Origin: Levilactobacillus lindianensis
GTDB taxonomy: Bacteria; Bacillota; Bacilli; Lactobacillales; Lactobacillaceae
Length of the DNA stretch: 63,265 nt
NCBI RefSeq assembly: GCF_003946095.1
Contig: NZ_RHOD01000016.1
Coordinates: 1-63,265, forward strand
Reading direction: 5' to 3'
Every line of letters starts with the position of its first letter. Position 1 is the first letter of the stretch. This document shows, piece after piece, positions 11,095 to 60,978 of this stretch. The notes beneath the pieces are model-generated. The model was given only the letters and a program-made list of their open reading frames with translations, was not told the origin of the DNA and searched no databases. The position numbers were made by a program, and so were the translations under genes.

Positions 11095-11991
11095 ATGGCG
11101 ACACAGCCTATTTTACAAATTCATCAGTTACAGAAAAAGTTTGGCCGTTTTCAAGCATTAAAAGATATCACCTTCAGTGTGAATGCCGGTGAGGTGTTCG
11201 GGTTCATTGGACCTAACGGTGCTGGTAAATCAACCACGATCCGGGTACTTCTGGGGTTGATCCGTGCGACTGGCGGATCGGCTACCATCTTCGGTCAGGA
11301 CGTCTGGCAGGATAGCGTCACGATCCACCAACGTCTGGCCTATGTGCCCGGCGACGTGTACCTCTGGCCAAATCTGACCGGGGGCGAAATCATTGATCTG
11401 TTACTCAAAATGAACGGCACGGCCCATTCCGACAAGACCGATGCCCTAATCAAACAGTTCGGGCTTGATCCGACCAAGAAGGCGCGGACCTACTCCAAAG
11501 GGAATCGCCAGAAGGTGGCGCTGATTGCCGCCTTCTCCCAAGATGCCGATTTCTACATCTTTGACGAACCAACCTCTGGGCTCGATCCACTCAACGAACG
11601 GGTCTTCCAGGAAGCCGTCTTAGACTTAAAGCAACGTGGCAAGGCCGTCCTGCTTTCAAGTCATATTCTCTCCGAAGTGGAACGCATGTGTGACCGCATC
11701 GGGATCATCCGTGAGGGACAAATCATCGAGACCGGGAGTCTCGCTGAGATGCGCCACCTGACGCGCACCATGGTTACTGTTACGCTGGGCGATGACTTTG
11801 ACGTGACCACCCTGCCCGGGGTTCACGGTGTCACCGCTGGCCATCAAGCCCACGAGTGGCAATTTGCCGTCGAAGATTCGCAATTAGCCACCATCATGGC
11901 TACCCTGGCGCAACACCAGGTCATGGCCCTACAGAGTACGCCACCAACTCTTGAAGATCTCTTCATGCACTACTACACGGGAAAGGAGTGA
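11095..11991 (+). CDS. ABC transporter ATP-binding protein
   Basis: 298 aa. Walker A is GPNGAGKST (about residues 39-47), the signature is YSKGNRQKVALIAAF (a variant of LSGGQ), Walker B is FYIFDEP, followed by the H-loop SSHIL. The C-terminal 75 residues are the usual extension of exporter ATPases of the drug-resistance type. It forms an exporter with the permease encoded next. Under likely control of the divergent TetR protein. Confidence 0.93.
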   Translation: MATQPILQIHQLQKKFGRFQALKDITFSVNAGEVFGFIGPNGAGKSTTIRVLLGLIRATGGSATIFGQDVWQDSVTIHQRLAYVPGDVYLWPNLTGGEIIDLLLKMNGTAHSDKTDALIKQFGLDPTKKARTYSKGNRQKVALIAAFSQDADFYIFDEPTSGLDPLNERVFQEAVLDLKQRGKAVLLSSHILSEVERMCDRIGIIREGQIIETGSLAEMRHLTRTMVTVTLGDDFDVTTLPGVHGVTAGHQAHEWQFAVEDSQLATIMATLAQHQVMALQSTPPTLEDLFMHYYTGKE

Positions 11992-11996
11992 TCGCC

Positions 11997-13619
11997 ATGT
12001 CACGTTATGGACGTACCGGTCAACTGATCCGGTTAGCCTTTCGCCGCGATCGCTTCCGGATTCTCATGTGGATTGTCATTCTAGCCGCTCTGATGGCTAG
12101 TGTGGCCTGGAAATTTCAAGACATCTACGGCACGCAATCCGAAATTGCGGCCATCAAGGGAACTCTCGCTAGTCCCGGAATTATGGCGATGTTTGGGGCC
12201 TTCACTTTCAAAGGGAAGGTCACTACTGCCGAAATCTTTGCGAACGAAATGCTCCTATTCATGGGACTGATTCAAGTCGTCATGAACCTCGCCCTTAGCA
12301 TCCACGCCACCCGTGGCGAGGAAGACTTAGGAATCACCGAACTTGTGAGAGCCCACGCCGTTGGCACGGCCGCCCCATTAGCCGCCGCGGCCTGGGAACT
12401 AGTCATCGTTAACGGCCTTCTAGGTATCCTCTACGGCGTCGGTTTAACCGCCGCTAACATGCCGGGTGCCACCCTTGAAGGGAACTGGCTGATTGGTCTA
12501 GGTTTAGCCACCACCGGCCTCCTCTTTGGGTTCTTGGGCCTCCTGATGTCCCAGATTGCGGATCACTCTGCCAGCGCCACTGGACTCGCCTACACTCTTT
12601 TTGGAATCAGCTATTTAGCTCGGATGATTACCGACGTTCAGCATCCCAAGCTCACCTGGTGGTCCCCACTGGGTTGGGTGGAAAAGTTAGCGCCGTACAA
12701 CGATGCCAACTGGCTGCCCGTCTGGCTGAGTCTAGGCACTGCCCTGATTCTCTTTGGTCTGGCCGTCATGGCCAACAATCGCCGAGACCTCGGTGCCGGT
12801 GCACTGACCACCCGGCCCGGTAAGCGTCACGCTTCAGCACTTCTACGGGGACCACTTTCCCTACTGTGGCGCCGTCAACGCAATGTTATTATTGCGTGGA
12901 TCCTAGCGGTCATCATCTTCGGAGTTGCCTACGGAACGGTCTTTAATACCATCGGTGATATTCTGAAAACTAACCCGACGATGCAACAGGTCTTCGGCGC
13001 GGCCATGGTCCACGAGGCTAACCACAAAGTCCTGTTAAGCTTCACGTCACTCCTGGCCGTCGTCATGGCCGCCGTGGCCACCATCCCTGGCATTCAGCTA
13101 ATCTTAAAGGCCCACACCGACGAAACTCGGGGCTGGTTGGAAGCCGTTTACGCGCGGCCAGTGAGCCGCACCCGCCTCTTCTTCAGCTACGTGGGTCCCG
13201 CCTTTCTAACCAGCACTCTGGCCTACATTGGCGGTCTGGGTGGCATCGTCATCATGGGGGATGCCAGTCTGGATCACGTGAAGGACGGCATCAGTGCCCA
13301 CGAATTCTGGCAAGGTATTGCCGGACAACTTCCAGAAATCTGGGTCTTTCTGGGAATTGCCGTATTACTCGTTGGCTGCTGGCCACGGATCAAGACCTTT
13401 ACCTGGCTCTACCTGGCATTGGGCTTTGTCTCCGTCTACATGGGGAGCCTACTCAAGCTGCCTAGCTGGGTTAAGAATGTCACCCCTGCTGGCTGGATGC
13501 CTCGGATTCCGCAACACGCGGTCGACTGGACAACCTTTAGCTGGATGATTGGTTTAGCTATCGTTCTGGTTATCGTTGGTTGGCTAGGTTACCGCCGTCG
13601 GGATCTTCAGATGAGATAA
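11997..13619 (+). CDS. ABC-2 type exporter permease (two repeated halves)
   Basis: 540 aa with about 12 transmembrane segments in two similar halves, as in permeases annotated as exporters of polyketide-type antibiotics. The two halves share RLAFRRDRFRILMWIVI-like and LLWRRQRNVIIAWIL starts. I chose the ATG at 11997, because the GTG at 11988 would sit within the ribosome site AAAGGAG (11982-11988). It starts 5 nt after the ATPase gene and ends the operon. Cargo unknown; the TetR control suggests an inducible export function. Confidence 0.85.
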   Translation: MSRYGRTGQLIRLAFRRDRFRILMWIVILAALMASVAWKFQDIYGTQSEIAAIKGTLASPGIMAMFGAFTFKGKVTTAEIFANEMLLFMGLIQVVMNLALSIHATRGEEDLGITELVRAHAVGTAAPLAAAAWELVIVNGLLGILYGVGLTAANMPGATLEGNWLIGLGLATTGLLFGFLGLLMSQIADHSASATGLAYTLFGISYLARMITDVQHPKLTWWSPLGWVEKLAPYNDANWLPVWLSLGTALILFGLAVMANNRRDLGAGALTTRPGKRHASALLRGPLSLLWRRQRNVIIAWILAVIIFGVAYGTVFNTIGDILKTNPTMQQVFGAAMVHEANHKVLLSFTSLLAVVMAAVATIPGIQLILKAHTDETRGWLEAVYARPVSRTRLFFSYVGPAFLTSTLAYIGGLGGIVIMGDASLDHVKDGISAHEFWQGIAGQLPEIWVFLGIAVLLVGCWPRIKTFTWLYLALGFVSVYMGSLLKLPSWVKNVTPAGWMPRIPQHAVDWTTFSWMIGLAIVLVIVGWLGYRRRDLQMR

Positions 13620-13635
13620 GAGTGAAAATGGATGT

Positions 13636-13825
13636 AGACGACCGCCTGCGGCTGTCAGGGATTACGCCTGCTGTGGGGACGCTTCAGCCCCTTGGGCTTC
13701 TCGCTCGATTTGAAGCCCCGCCAGGGACGCGGGTCTTCAAAGTCGCCCGTGGCGTAAGGCCGAGAAAAACGCTCAGTCTAACGCCACCACCACGGCCGGC
13801 TCCATCCCTGACCTCCTCCGGCTAG
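13636..13825 (-). repeat. Family-2 structured repeat, copy a
   Basis: About 190 bp. Read on the minus strand it starts GCCGGAGGAGG and ends CCGCAGGCGG. The closing helix GTCAGGGAT/ATCCCTGAC, an arm GGCGT/ACGCC around a conserved TTAGACTGAG..CTCGGCCTTA, and a hairpin GAAGACCCGC..GCGGGGCTTC are all intact. It lies head to head with copy b. Short ORFs cross it, but the conservation pattern is that of RNA helices. Confidence 0.7.
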
Positions 13826-14112
13826 ATTGGTTTTTAACCGCTACATGGCCGTTCAAAATTTGATACTTTCTATCTGATGGCAAACCACAATACCAGATTG
13901 GGCACTACTGTTCTAACAACGAGGTTCAATCTGAACCAGTATGTTTGTCTGTCATCTTGACTCGCAAGCAGTCTCACAATCGCAGCAATTGTAAAGCCCT
14001 CAACCATGCTAAACTGCGTGGTTGAGGGCTTTTTGACTGTTAAATTGGTGCTACCAGCATATGACTCTGGCAATTCCAACAAGAGTCATCAGGCCGCCAC
14101 GACTCACTACCT
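13826..14112. other. Spacer between head-to-head repeats a and b
   Basis: No gene. It contains a hairpin at 13993-14032 (AAAGCCCTCAACCA with TGGTTGAGGGCTTT, then a T) that can end transcription on the plus strand. No promoter stood out. Confidence 0.5.
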
Positions 14113-14304
14113 GAGCCGGAGGAGGCCAGGGGTGGAGCCAGCCGTGACGAGTCTGTTAGACCGAGCGCTTTTCTCGGCCTTACAGACTGGGACGACTTGG
14201 GAGACTCGCGGTTCTCAGCGGGGCTTCCAAGCGAGCCGGAAGCCCGCCCTTTGGCTGTAGGCGGTCCCCACAGCAGGCGTAACCCCTGGCAGCCGCAGGC
14301 GGCC
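14113..14304 (+). repeat. Family-2 structured repeat, copy b
   Basis: Full-length copy. The closing helix is GCCAGGGGT/ACCCCTGGC, the first arm TCTGT/ACAGA around TTAGACCGAG..CTCGGCCTTA, and the second hairpin CTTGG..CCAAG. Each helix differs in sequence from copy a but still pairs. It lies between the ABC permease (plus) and ackA (minus). Confidence 0.7.
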
Positions 14305-14357: not shown

Positions 14358-15545
14358 TTAGTGGGACAGACGGTTCACGTCGCGAACAATCATGAGTTCC
14401 TCGTTAGTTGGCACGACCAGCACCTTAACGGCCGCGTCATCGGGGCTCACGATATGTTCTTCACCCCGGAAGTCATTCTTAGCGGGATCGATGGCAACAC
14501 CGAAGACTCCCAATTTATCAGCAATGGCCTGGCGCATGGCGATCCCATTCTCACCGGAACCAGCCGTGAAGACAATGGCATCCAAGCCACCGAGTTCAGC
14601 TACATAGCTTCCTACGTAGCAGACCACGCGGTTAACGAACATGTCCAAAGCCAGCTTGGACTTGGGCCGCTCATCTTGCGTATCTTCCAGGTCACGTTGA
14701 TCGGGTGACAATTCGGACACCCCTAACAGCCCAGACTTGTGGTTTAAAATATCCACCATGGCTGGCATATCAATCTGGAGTTTCTCCGCCAGGAAGGCGA
14801 CCAGGGAAGCGTCGATATCCCCCGAACGTGTCCCCATCATGACCCCTGCGAGGGGCGTGAAACCCATCGAGGTATCGAGGGCCTGACCGTGGTCAAACGC
14901 CGTGACCGAGGAACCAGAGCCCAAATGCAGGGTGATCAGTTTCAGGTCTTCTAGGGGTTTGCCGAGAAGTTCTGCGGTTCGGTGCGCCACGTAACGGTGG
15001 CTAGTCCCGTGAGCCCCGTACTTACGGGCCCCAAACTTTTCGTAGTATTCGTAAGGCAGGCTATACATGTAGTTCACAGCCGGCATATCCGTATACAGGG
15101 AGGTGTCGAAGACCGCAACCTGTTGGGCATCAGGCAATAACTGCTGGAAGACCTCGATGTAATAGGCCTGAACTGGATTGTGGAGTGGTGCATAGTCCTT
15201 TAAAGACTTGATCTGGTCCAAGACTTCCGGCGTAATCAGCGCAGAATCCTTGAAGATTTCACCCCCGGCGACGATTCGATGACCGACACCGGTGATTTCA
15301 CTCAAGTGGTCCAAAATCCCGTAGGACTTGAGGCGTGTCAATACCATGGCCGCCGCTTCTTGATTGGTGATGTTGTCCTGGGTATCCGTAAACTTTTCGC
15401 CGTTGGCCAGCTTGACCTTAAAGATCGAGCCGGGCAGATTTAAGCGATCGACCAAACCAGATGCAATGACCGTCTCCTCTGGCATTTCAAAGAGTTTCCA
15501 CTTCAGTGTTGAACTTCCCGCGTTAATCGCCAATGTTTTTCCCAT
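14358..15545 (-). CDS. ackA: Acetate kinase
   Basis: 395 aa, usual length. It converts acetyl phosphate and ADP to acetate and ATP, the ATP-yielding end of the acetate branch in heterofermentation. Visible motifs: NAGSSTLKWKLFEMP at the N-terminus (residues 7-21), GHRIVAGGE, FDTSLYTDMP, GAHGTSHRYVA, LHLGSGSSV, GTRSGDID and the C-terminal TAGSGENG. The start has AGGAGG upstream. A predicted promoter and an overlapping cre-like site lie at 15580-15608. It is not linked to pta. Confidence 0.96.
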   Translation of the reverse strand: MGKTLAINAGSSTLKWKLFEMPEETVIASGLVDRLNLPGSIFKVKLANGEKFTDTQDNITNQEAAAMVLTRLKSYGILDHLSEITGVGHRIVAGGEIFKDSALITPEVLDQIKSLKDYAPLHNPVQAYYIEVFQQLLPDAQQVAVFDTSLYTDMPAVNYMYSLPYEYYEKFGARKYGAHGTSHRYVAHRTAELLGKPLEDLKLITLHLGSGSSVTAFDHGQALDTSMGFTPLAGVMMGTRSGDIDASLVAFLAEKLQIDMPAMVDILNHKSGLLGVSELSPDQRDLEDTQDERPKSKLALDMFVNRVVCYVGSYVAELGGLDAIVFTAGSGENGIAMRQAIADKLGVFGVAIDPAKNDFRGEEHIVSPDDAAVKVLVVPTNEELMIVRDVNRLSH

Positions 15546-20334: not shown

Positions 20335-21158
20335 AATAAATGAATGTCCTCCTTTGTTTGCTTAACGGCTATTAGAATAACTGATGGTTATGTCAGTGAG
20401 ATTGGTGTTAGGTTACACCAGCGTTAAGAAAAATATTACAGTATGACATTCCGTAATATTTGTTACCTGGTTGTCATATAAACCGCTTTAATTGCCCACT
20501 TTTTACCCATTTTAGCCAAAAAGAGACCCTTTTTCCCGTGTCTTTTGCACCGAAAAATCGAAAAAATTTGTCATTTTTCATGATAATCTGATGAAATTTT
20601 GACATTTTCCAGCTTCTTTCACGCAAAGTCACCCAAATTTCACGTCTGATCACCCCCATTTTTATCAAAATTAGGGGCCGGGACCTCCGATTTTTTATAA
20701 AAATGCTTATTTCTTAGTGACCCTCCCCCAAATAAGTCCTCAACAACAAACTCCGAACAGCGGCTCACCCATTCATCGAGATGTTAACTTCTAGCAGTTA
20801 TTAATATAGTAGAAAACCGATCTGTTTTTTGATAAATACTACTGAGAAACAGCTACTTAGTCGACATCTAGCAACATTTGCCATTAACCCTATCAGCAAA
20901 TCGACTACCACTTCACCTCAAATATTGGCTACCGTCACGCCATTTCATGGCAATTCGCTACCGTAGTCGGAGGAGGTCAGGGGTGATGACGATGGCGTAA
21001 GATCGAGTGGGCTCCTCGGCCTTTGACTTTGAAGACCCGCGCTTCTTAGTGGGGCTTCAAAGTCAAAGGCCGAGGAGCCTGGTCCCCAGGCCGAAGCGTA
21101 CCCACAGCAGGCGGTTTTTTTTTGGTCTATTTTCAAACCAAAAAGGAAGCATAAAAAA
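20335..21158. other. Long intergenic region before the adhE terminator
   Basis: No gene. 20335-20470 is the leader/promoter region of the Apf-like gene, with the block shared with its paralogue. 20470-20960 is AT-rich and I recognise nothing in it. 20964-21114 holds a degenerate family-2 repeat (copy c). Confidence 0.45.
20964..21114 (+). repeat. Family-2 structured repeat, degenerate copy c
   Basis: It starts TCGGAGGAGGTCAGGGG and ends CCCACAGCAGGCGG. The middle has a 14-bp perfect hairpin CTTTGACTTTGAAG/CTTCAAAGTCAAAG with the conserved ACCCGCG..AGTGGGG inside, extended by CTCCTCGGC/GCCGAGGAG. The first arm and the 3' closing strand of full-length copies are reduced or lost. Confidence 0.6.
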
Positions 21159-29013: not shown

Positions 29014-29420
29014 CGCCGATTCCTCCTTTTACGGGTTCTTTAATCACTATTGTACTCGATAATCCGCTTTCAATCCTGTAATCACGCGACATTTTCAGGA
29101 ACTTTAAAAATTCGGTAATAGTTCACAGGACCTCGTTGGAGTGTTTAAATGGACGTATGGGGTTGTGGAAGGGGTCACCTGTGGCTGCCAGGGATTACGC
29201 CTGCTGTGGGGACGCTTCAGCCCTGACCTCCTCCGGCTTAGATCGACCCTTTCCGCAACGAAGCTCTCGCCCCACCTTTTTTAATTCTACGGACTGAGAC
29301 GTATCCAAATGACGTCTCGATCTACCAAATTTATCGTTAATTTCCGACATAATCATTGCGGCCGGCAACCATTTAGTCGGTCACAAATATCTCGCTTCAC
29401 TACATAAAGGAGGCACCACC
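29014..29420. other. Intergenic region with deleted family-2 repeat
   Basis: It separates the ATPase gene from the small membrane peptide. Apart from repeat remnant d (29178-29239), I see only the ribosome site AAAGGAGG (29407-29414) of the next ORF. Confidence 0.5.
29178..29239 (-). repeat. Family-2 repeat remnant d, internal deletion
   Basis: On the minus strand the 5' block GCCGGAGGAGGTCAGGG is joined directly to the 3' block CTGAAGCGTCCCCACAGC and ATCCCTGGCAGCC of the full-length form. About 120 nt containing both inner arms are missing. The closing helix strands are kept. The junction sits at a short CCC shared by the two sides in copy a. Confidence 0.65.
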
Positions 29421-34527: not shown

Positions 34528-35184
34528 GTTGATTCCTCCTAAATATAGGTCAGATTATCTGTCGTCATAGCCAAGTTTAACCACTGAAAAAATGCTGAAT
34601 GGCTAAATGGTCTCAAAAACTATGTATAGCACCCAATCGCGTGCTCAAAATGATTATATCACAAGGGTTTACCCGTCAACAGGCCCAATCCCACCGCCTT
34701 GCGCCAACTTAACGACGTCTAACTTCACAACCCAAACGCAATCCTGGGCCCCTACTTATACTAACGAAATCCAGCTAGACTTTTTCGCAAGTTTTGAAAA
34801 ATTAACTATTAAAATGGTAATTTATCGGCGGCAAATTCGCGAAAAAGTGGGATGGCGAGTGGTAGTTAGGCAGACACTCGACCACCGTCATCAAAACATC
34901 GGATTGTCTAACAACCAATTGTGGCAACTCCAAAGATCAACATATGTTGCGGCAACGCTCAAACCTAGCCGGAGGAGGCTAGGGATGACGCCGGCCGTGG
35001 TGGTGATGTTAGACCGAGTGATTTTCTCGGCCTTACATCACGGGCGACTTTGAAGACTCGCGTTCTTAGCGAGGCTTCAATTCGAGCGAGAAGCCCAAGG
35101 GGCTGAAGCGGCCCCACAGCAGACGCAATCCCTGGCATCCGCAGGCGGCCAATTTCATCCAACAATTCCCAAGCTATATAAAAA
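34528..35184. other. Intergenic region with family-2 repeat e
   Basis: No gene supported. 34528-34600 is the upstream region of the membrane-protein gene. 34600-34960 is AT-rich with nothing recognised. 34964-35150 is repeat copy e. ORFs that cross it have no ribosome site or family. Confidence 0.5.
34964..35150 (+). repeat. Family-2 structured repeat, copy e
   Basis: Full-length copy. Closing helix GCTAGGGAT/ATCCCTGGC; first arm GATGT/ACATC around TTAGACCGAG..CTCGGCCTTA; second hairpin TTGAAGACTCGCG..AGCGAGGCTTCAA; third hairpin GAGAAGCCC..GGGCTGAAGC. Each arm differs from copies a and b by changes on both strands. Confidence 0.7.
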
Positions 35185-51608: not shown

Positions 51609-51819
51609 TTAGTCCGTGGGTTGGTCCGCCTACGGCGGGCGGGTGCTCCCAGCCTATGGGGCACGGTTGAAGCCAAAGACCGGTCTTCAACCTCGTCCTC
51701 AAGCCCCCAGGATCGGGGTCTCGAAGACGTCCCGTGCTGTAAGGCCGGAAACCCACCGCCCTAACACCACCGACACAGGCTTCCGCACCCGCCCGCCGAA
51801 GGCTAAGATTGCGGACTAA
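51609..51819 (-). repeat. Family-2 structured repeat, diverged copy f
   Basis: It lacks the GCCGGAGGAGG start of the other copies but has a perfect 13-bp closing helix GGCGGGCGGGTGC/GCACCCGCCCGCC (51634-51646, 51785-51797), an outermost TTAGTCCG/CGGACTAA, and inner arms matching copy g (third hairpin GGTTGAAG..CTTCAACC where g has GGGTGAAG..CTTCACCC). The order of arms and the TTCCGG..CTTACAG..GGGACGTC block are shared with g. Confidence 0.6.
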
Positions 51820-52040
51820 TTTTAACTAACATCAAACATATTCAGCGTTTAATTCAATGTTCCATATAACTATATTGAAACTATCTATATTTTATGGATA
51901 CGGATAGGGTCCCCTTAACAGTTTCACCTGACGAATGCTTGTCATTTCTAACTGACCGCTATCTAATTTAAGACAAGTCTCATTCTCTGTAAGAGGTAAA
52001 CAGGAAACCTGTAACAACAACTTTCTTAATTTCAGCCGTT

Positions 52041-52229
52041 GTCGCCATAGCCGGAGGAGACCAGGGGCGTAGTCCTGTGTCGGGGCTGTTTGACCGGTGA
52101 CTTTCCGGTCTTACAGCCCGGGACGTCTTTAAGACTCACGGTTTGGGTGAGGTTTAAAGCGAGGGTGAAGACCGCCCTTCGGCTTCACCCGTGCCCCACA
52201 GGACGAAGCTTCTGGTCACCGCAGGCGAC
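52041..52229 (+). repeat. Family-2 structured repeat, diverged copy g
   Basis: It starts GTCGCC, then GCCGGAGGAG, and ends CCGCAGGCGAC. Helices: GTCGCC/GGCGAC (outermost), GACCAG/CTGGTC (52059-52064, 52212-52217), GTCCTGTG/CACAGGAC, GGCTGT/ACAGCC around TTTGACCGG..CCGGTCTTA, CTTTAAGACTCAC..GTGAGGTTTAAAG, and GGGTGAAG..CTTCACCC. Each has a different-sequence counterpart in copies a, b and e. Confidence 0.68.
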
Positions 52230-60770: not shown

Positions 60771-60789
60771 GAATTTGTAAGATAAATTA

Positions 60790-60945
60790 GAAGCTGTTAG
60801 GTGAGGCTCCTATACGGAAAATGCTACTGCTCAGAAACGTCGAGAAACGCCAATGAGTCAGCTGTGCAGGTCAAATTAAGGCCTGCTCTAATGTAGCTGT
60901 TATGATTCTTTAACTACGCCGTATAGTGCTAAAACTCAACGACTG
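60790..60945 (+). ncRNA. M-box (ykoK) Mg2+ riboswitch aptamer
   Basis: Contains the conserved series GTTAGGTGAGGCTCCTATA, then TGCTACTGCTCAGAAACGTCG, AGACGCCAATGAGTCA-like GAAACGCCAATGAGTCA, GTAGCTG and CGCCGTATAGTGCTAAAACTC. This is the order of the M-box, which binds several Mg2+ ions and ends transcription when Mg2+ is high. No Mg2+ transporter follows on this strand. Confidence 0.88.
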
Positions 60946-60978
60946 GCTAAATTAGTTCGCAAATTGCTTTTTAATTGT

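Follow-up and report, generated by a model that had tools for sequence, protein, structure and literature searches.

The bacterial MITEs treated in the portion of the review drawn on here are roughly 100-155 bp in length, and their use is mostly unclear (PMC2229807). Among the families in that account, RUP of Streptococcus pneumoniae is 107 bp long, uses TA target sites and shares its TIRs with IS630-Spn1, with no structural signature reported there; NEMIS/Correia and ERIC measure ~105-155 bp, and the CIR repeats of Caulobacter, an alpha-proteobacterial family of ~110 bp, are only partly MITE-like (PMC2229807). REPINs consist of paired REP sequences associated with RAYT transposases, and 93% of 430 doublets are inverted according to the part of the report available to us (PMC3116915).

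A comparison of these systems with a structured repeat family in Levilactobacillus lindianensis, found in a stretch of 63,265 nucleotides (hereafter the window), reveals both similarities and differences. As far as the cited part describes REPINs (PMC3116915), the inverted doublet is the unit in both cases (36 of 38 and 38 of 40 neighbor pairs here), the spacer is less conserved than the ends, the copies are extragenic with compensatory changes, and singlets occur as relics; however, each half of the present unit is a ~180-nt branched fold rather than a short palindrome, the two halves are mostly of different types, and a DDE transposase of the IS4 type, instead of a RAYT, is indicated by the ends and the 7-8-bp duplications. 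Like RUP as reviewed (PMC2229807), the family is non-autonomous and intergenic, has TIRs in common with a host IS and reaches about 100 copies, whereas its ~600-bp unit with two branched domains, 7-8-bp duplications and IS4-family ends differs from RUP. The MITE-like intergenic position is also a feature of NEMIS/Correia and ERIC, whose RNA is proposed in the same review to fold and to affect neighboring messages (PMC2229807), but the domain described here comprises a closing stem and three hairpins and shows in-place compensation across orthologues. The CIR repeats, in the reviewed description (PMC2229807), likewise combine a conserved RNA fold of two arms and a linker with an intergenic location and unclear mobility. 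Finally, an IS4-family IS (NF049925) has the same terminal CTRAAGGTTGAAAG and 8-bp duplications as the structured units but, unlike them, carries a transposase and has no CM hit inside.

In the first-pass annotation of the window, a structured repeat was placed at seven loci. A covariance model (CM) was built from 49 copies, including four of the seven window copies and leaving out those at 20966-21130, 29174-29237 and 51625-51803, and a search of the 2.33-Mb genome from which the window comes (G000) recovers all seven, with E-values of 2.8e-6 to 3.1e-54 and within 16 bases of the ends first proposed; the helix letters originally quoted are also present in the sequence. Copy a (13641-13822, minus strand, 191.3 bits) is the left member of divergent pair 1, and its 3' end lies 21 bp beyond the stop of the plus-strand ORF 11988-13619. 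The spacer (13823-14114) separates it from the right member, copy b (14115-14303, plus strand, 212.1 bits), the 3' end of which is 54 bp from the end of the minus-strand acetate kinase ORF 14358-15545 (PF00871). The 5' edge motif of copy b, AGCCGGAGG (14114-14122, plus strand), is a near-direct repeat of 14291-14299, and its 3' hairpin, AGCCGCAGGCGGC (14291-14303, plus strand), is the same piece that remains in three deletion scars elsewhere. Divergent pair 2 is composed of copy f (51625-51803, minus strand, 115 bits) on the left, a spacer (51804-52049) and copy g (52050-52229, plus strand, 153.3 bits) on the right, whereas copy e (34968-35149, plus strand, 178.4 bits) is without a CM-detectable partner nearby. 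Copy c (20966-21130, plus strand) is degenerate and weak at 33.8 bits, and copy d (29174-29237, minus strand, 42 bits) contains an internal deletion, which is visible when the deleted site is aligned with the filled one. Both are decay products, because their syntenic orthologues in L. humaensis (G007) are intact (L144:2601-2787, 189.9 bits, for copy c; L144:10848-11030, 185 bits, for copy d). No promoter-like sites are found in either window pair. A symmetric terminator-like hairpin, read by eye, occupies 13993-14032 in the spacer of pair 1 (AAAGCCC...GGGCTTT, with arms AAAGCCCTCAACCA / TGGTTGAGGGCTTT followed by T's) and is absent from the output of a hairpin scan with a loop limit of 8; several other pair spacers, also read by eye, hold terminator-like hairpins of the same kind but of different sequence. 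Elsewhere in the window, an M-box (ykoK) magnesium riboswitch is present at 60786-60954 on the plus strand (Rfam RF00380, 135.6 bits).

The family is present in many copies in Levilactobacillus genomes. The CM search of G000 gives 81 hits, or 74 distinct places after subtraction of seven opposite-strand shadows; about 75 copies lie in the fetched parts, the weakest at 20-30 bits, and this number is a lower bound, with 150 of 562 CM candidates scored. The fetched parts of the L. humaensis genome contain 50 copies, and 127 CM hits are obtained in the related genome G014. A blastn search gives matches in 16 of 40 genomes, counting G000 itself; every one of the 16 is among the 24 listed Levilactobacillus genomes, and this count is too low because a CM hit is present in L178 of the blastn-negative genome G004. 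A 29-base exact pattern finds 18 stretches in L. paucivorans, L. humaensis, L. andaensis, L. fuyuanensis and one uncultured MAG. A CM scan of the order, run with stricter filters and with eight candidates scored per genome, is positive in 9 of 295 genomes and 5 of 74 genera, every one in the Lactobacillaceae; the hits in the four genera other than Levilactobacillus are weaker. Distant blastn searches of plasmid and phage collections gave no match to the elements. The earlier statement that no named RNA contains these blocks is in agreement with Rfam, in which the whole window and the elements, compared at loose thresholds, yield no credible family match to the elements. A weak Rfam match, mir-5879, was discarded, as it falls on the spacer's terminator hairpin alone and not on the elements. 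At the level of titles and abstracts of freely accessible journal papers, no description of this repeat family was found in the literature.

The copies, of roughly 185 bases, share a branched fold. The RNAalifold consensus is a domain of ~180 nt in which a closing stem, a second stem and three hairpins contribute 48 pairs, and small GCC..GGC hairpins are located at both edges of the element. Two-sided changes are observed in 33 of the 48 pairs, and 97.7% of 2374 cells are paired in the consensus fold versus 85.9% in shuffles; when the partners are slid by one to three columns, 32.6-39.4% of cells are paired, a control that leans toward the fold because the fold was derived from the same alignment. 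Of the checks proposed by the first-pass annotation, a CM was built and covariation was tested, and significant covarying pairs were found: with 50 sequences the tree-based null leaves eight significant column pairs, seven of them within the consensus fold, and with a 139-sequence MAFFT alignment it leaves 11, nine of which are at least 75% canonical, where the test is our own R-scape-like procedure, not R-scape, with smallest reachable E-values of 0.01 and 0.017. These results bear out the claim that the helices are kept by paired changes, and the single-strand fold of the elements is genuine. Folding energy cannot tell which strand folds, because a window copy (-99.4 kcal/mol, z -3.1) and its complement (-99.1 kcal/mol, z -4.0) fold alike. 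Across the family, GT and TG pairs outnumber CA and AC pairs by 95 to 23, a modest argument for RNA because C/T changes also exceed A/G changes in the loops; against that baseline, the count with one column removed is 69 of 92 (p 0.014).

The domains are arranged in a characteristic manner that the first-pass annotation had missed, namely as divergent and mostly heterotypic pairs. Within the fetched stretches of G000 and L. humaensis, 36 of 38 neighbors within 1.2 kb are divergent, two are head to tail (L111:4300-4624 in G000 and L145:2511-2936 in L. humaensis) and none face each other, although these cases are not independent because many loci are common to the two genomes. Similarly, 38 of 40 close neighbors in G014 are divergent, with a median spacer of 84 bp, and the other two face each other ~1.1 kb apart; in a second related genome, G003, 15 of 17 are divergent in a subset picked for closeness of hits. 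The members belong to different clusters in 27 of 35 pairs (0.30 distance cut), and the same-cluster pairs comprise seven (2,2) and one (4,4). The spacers of G000 pairs span 45-357 bp, with one of 879 bp, and 15 of these longer than 110 bp (with 30 bp beside each copy excluded) show no mutual match by blastn. Among 122 copies placed in G000 and L. humaensis, the median distance from the 3' end to the nearest gene is 84 bp, and none lies within a called ORF, where the caller drops ORFs of less than 250 aa that overlap a copy. High copy number (~75 copies in G000) and intergenic position, both traits of MITEs, are therefore found. The gene on the 3' side is antiparallel to the copy in 75 of 122 cases, and its stop is 15-35 bp away in 24 of these 75 versus 4 of the remaining 47. 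A replication-strand bias was considered and rejected: if the contig start is taken as the origin, co-directional copies number 31 of 45 strong ones in G014 (p 0.016), compared with 36 of 84 in G003 (p 0.23).

A dispersed cis-regulatory RNA, riboswitch-like or an attenuator, amplified in the genus would be expected to show a branched fold as elaborate and strongly conserved as this one, with loop letters that do not vary. Such an element is nevertheless very improbable here, since the strand combinations of the 5'-side and 3'-side genes (46, 29, 24 and 23 of 122 copies) reveal no fixed orientation to neighboring genes, and the window copies are adjacent to genes unrelated to one another.

The pairs of two relatives indicate how the family may spread. 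In G014 and G003, the divergent pair with its ~84-bp spacer forms the body of a non-autonomous unit of ~600 bp, which has 14-bp inverted ends, CTRAAGGTTGAAAG, and 7-8-bp target duplications. Of 19 aligned G014 pairs, 12 form one related set, and their likeness mostly runs 40-80 bp outside the pair, up to CTRAAGGTTGAAAG. With at most one mismatch, the CTRAAGGTTGAAAG pattern gives 74 matches in G014 versus 2 for the reversed control, and 5 versus 2 in G000. Exact target duplications of 7 or 8 bp are present in 9 of 14 two-ended G014 units, a count for which both lengths were accepted after the duplications had been seen and five 175-176-bp matches to an internal site were left out; for all 19 G014 rows, 8-bp duplications with at most one mismatch number 5, compared with a mean of 0.3 and a maximum of 4 in 2000 shuffles. 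Every one of the 14 units overlaps a CM hit with an E-value of 0.01 or better, L210 only weakly. The left end of L225 coincides with a domain start, which may be chance. Both ends are recognizable in three of the 20 G003 regions that were read (11 pairs and 9 single hits), and exact 8-bp duplications accompany two of the three, which measure 605 and 615 bp. A ACGGTAAGGCGGCC-like motif is also seen tens of bases beyond the A domain in G003 (L248, L249, L250 and L252) and G014 (L187 and L201); ACGGTAAGGCGGCC is the 3' end of the B domain, and its extra occurrences are perhaps a B scar outside the pair.

The same ends delimit transposase-bearing elements. In G000, the unit C9:10151-13516 (L124) has CTRAAGGTTGAAAG ends and an exact 8-bp duplication, GAAAAGAT, and carries an FMN oxidoreductase and a MerR-type regulator in addition to a transposase split over two ORFs; a further end-like site at 11708 (two mismatches) would delimit an inner part the size of an IS, which lacks a duplication. 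An intact-looking IS of 1559 bp in G018 (L229:1420-2978) has the same ends, a 450-aa ORF and an exact 8-bp duplication. The transposase belongs to the IS4 family (NCBIfam NF049925), with 255.5 bits for the first piece (cut-off 250) and 192 bits, below the cut-off, for the second, and is found in 8 of 29 Levilactobacillus genomes; no match at E 1e-10 is present in G014, which has the youngest-looking units. No CM hit lies inside the IS copies that were read. In L233 and L234 (G011 and G318), a structured copy is located beside, and not inside, an IS4-family fragment.

The G014 and G003 units thus have shared TIRs and target duplications, and are MITEs by these features. Inverted doublets around a spacer and the small GCC..GGC hairpins at both edges recall REPINs, but a DDE transposase is indicated by the 7-8-bp duplications and by ends common to an IS4-family element, so that mobilization through single-stranded DNA by a Y1 transposase of the REP-associated kind is highly doubtful. 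IS200/IS605-type elements are not known to produce a target duplication, and the 7-8-bp duplications in G014 and G003 therefore argue against an IS200/IS605-type or omega RNA identity. The first-pass annotation had opposed a selected structure to a simple IS remnant and named, as a refutation, MITEs with terminal repeats, target duplications and no transcript, an outcome that the G014 and G003 units provide in part. The selected single-strand fold stands, whereas the contrast with mobile elements does not: structure and MITE nature hold together, because the structured pair of G014 and G003 itself bears TIRs, duplications and IS4 ends, features of which none were found around the copies in the window's species. 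In G000 and L. humaensis, TIRs with a duplication surround 0 of 35 pairs and 3 of 55 single copies, the latter versus 0-1 in shuffles. A fixed-offset scan for duplications around single copies and pairs is not above control, G014 pairs included, and is blind even to these because their ends lie at varying distances. The arrival of the G000 copies by the same IS is consequently an extrapolation from G014 and G003, as no ends were found around the G000 copies, and it is the weakest link of the explanation.

These ends and duplications would also be expected of a purely selfish MITE, the fold of which would be needed only while the element spreads, in single-stranded DNA or RNA (e.g., for strand pairing, protection or transposase binding), and the resident copies of which are neutral relics. 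The existence of decayed and deleted copies is consistent with this, as is the finding that a pair close behind the acetate kinase gene is present only in G000 and L. humaensis among 27 genomes with a close orthologue (at least 84% identity). Around the same gene, CM hits in L165, L166 and L178 lie ~0.8-1.2 kb past its end, and one in L183 is on its 5' side. However, the evolution of the old copies in G000 and L. humaensis makes the purely selfish account possible but rather unlikely, since they change far more slowly than their flanks and show in-place compensation, which dead copies would not. For 31 orthologous copies paired by synteny, identity is higher in the element than in the 45 bp of flank next to its 5' end in 30 (medians 0.943 and 0.822; p about 3e-9). 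At ten loci, 19 elements have 93.0% identity and 1.6% gap columns, whereas the ten spacers have 80.2% and 16%; for pair 1 of the window, the spacer is 0.783 identical to that of L. humaensis and the two copies 0.923 and 0.974. The four orthologue pairs of low identity (<0.85) may reflect replacement by another copy.

The changes between orthologues, counted in an alignment that was fitted to the CM and leans towards its fold, tend to preserve pairing. Of the double changes, 49 preserve the pair and 7 do not, with 7.4 doubles expected in all; in the 22 orthologues at an identity of at least 0.9, 18 keep it and 4 do not, with 2.3 expected, and isolated double changes occur across several different helices. 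Pairing is kept in 53 of 89 single changes, compared with at most 39% expected from the loop spectrum. GC changes to GT in 39 cases versus 12 to AC; this strand-specific signal is modest (39 of 51, p 0.036) because the loops also favor C/T change, with 105 C/T versus 60 A/G differences on the element strand in the 31 orthologues. The C/T excess in the loops could reflect transcription, replication or base composition.

Some of the compensatory changes could result from templated hairpin repair instead of selection, and in its full form this account holds that hairpin DNA copies arm to arm at replication, which produces compensation without function. Significant covariation clusters in the first hairpin, which is variable, and the near-direct repeats and scars suggest slippage on these sequences, as such a process would predict, but it fails to explain why whole elements evolve more slowly than the flanking DNA, why wobble-keeping single changes are in excess and why isolated doubles occur in several helices, and is therefore improbable as the main cause. 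Selection instead seems to act on the resident copies.

The manner in which copies are lost is apparent at polymorphic sites. In ten sites chosen by hand that differ between G000 and L. humaensis, eight hold remnants or scars and represent losses, two (77 and 92) are ambiguous, and no clean empty site is present. At three G000 sites (cases 97, 99 and 109), the element has left precise scars that retain its 3' end, AGCCGCAGGCGGCC, which in case 109 differs at the first base; the five others show remnants or an internal deletion. The edges of an intact element carry AGCCGGAGG at one end and AGCCGCAGG at the other, and slippage between them may explain the scars. The solo hairpin AGCCGCAGGCGGC was also considered as a pre-existing insertion target, which is unlikely, as it is absent from the blastn-negative genomes G004, G005, G006, G012 and G013, a control that is weak because G003 and G010, which do bear the element, lack the hairpin as well.

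Taken together, we consider it reasonably probable, though well short of assured, that this is a bipartite family of structured MITEs in which resident copies are maintained for the sake of a fold adopted by a single strand, probably of RNA. The family is of MITE type because of its anatomy in two relatives, and the resident copies are not simply dead because they are constrained in the window's own species. The non-autonomous repeats would comprise two diverged domains of ~180 nt, A and B, pointing apart, and the pair would move as a ~600-bp unit in trans by an IS4-family transposase that recognizes CTRAAGGTTGAAAG and makes 7-8-bp target duplications, an enzyme suggested by the shared ends; ends and duplications are seen in two relatives, and for the window copies this dispersal step is extrapolated. 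After intergenic insertion, the outer ends and the spacer would decay once the unit is resident, while each folded domain would be kept by selection on its single-strand structure, consistent with the constraint observed in place. The folded strand is most likely RNA read through intergenic or 3'-untranslated DNA, and its benefit to the host is likewise presumed. A domain would be lost by slippage between AGCCGGAGG and AGCCGCAGG, brought together by the closing helix, which may leave the 14-nt hairpin scar observed at three loci.

The combination of transposon anatomy with constrained resident copies is unusual. Covariation, in-place constraint on individual orthologues and transposon ends are all visible in one family, and the question of whether repeats of this sort are junk or owe their retention to their RNA is therefore testable in a culturable genus. 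Additionally, the family offers a built-in contrast, since some species have the ends and duplications and others have old, constrained copies. A bolder reading, which we regard as unlikely and speculative, is that of a domesticated network, in which a transposon-borne two-domain RNA at about a hundred places per genome would be individually maintained at each and would serve as a shared RNA module, such as a binding platform, a processing site or a ribozyme-like domain at gene 3' ends. If true, this network would represent a new class of mobile, host-retained structured RNA.
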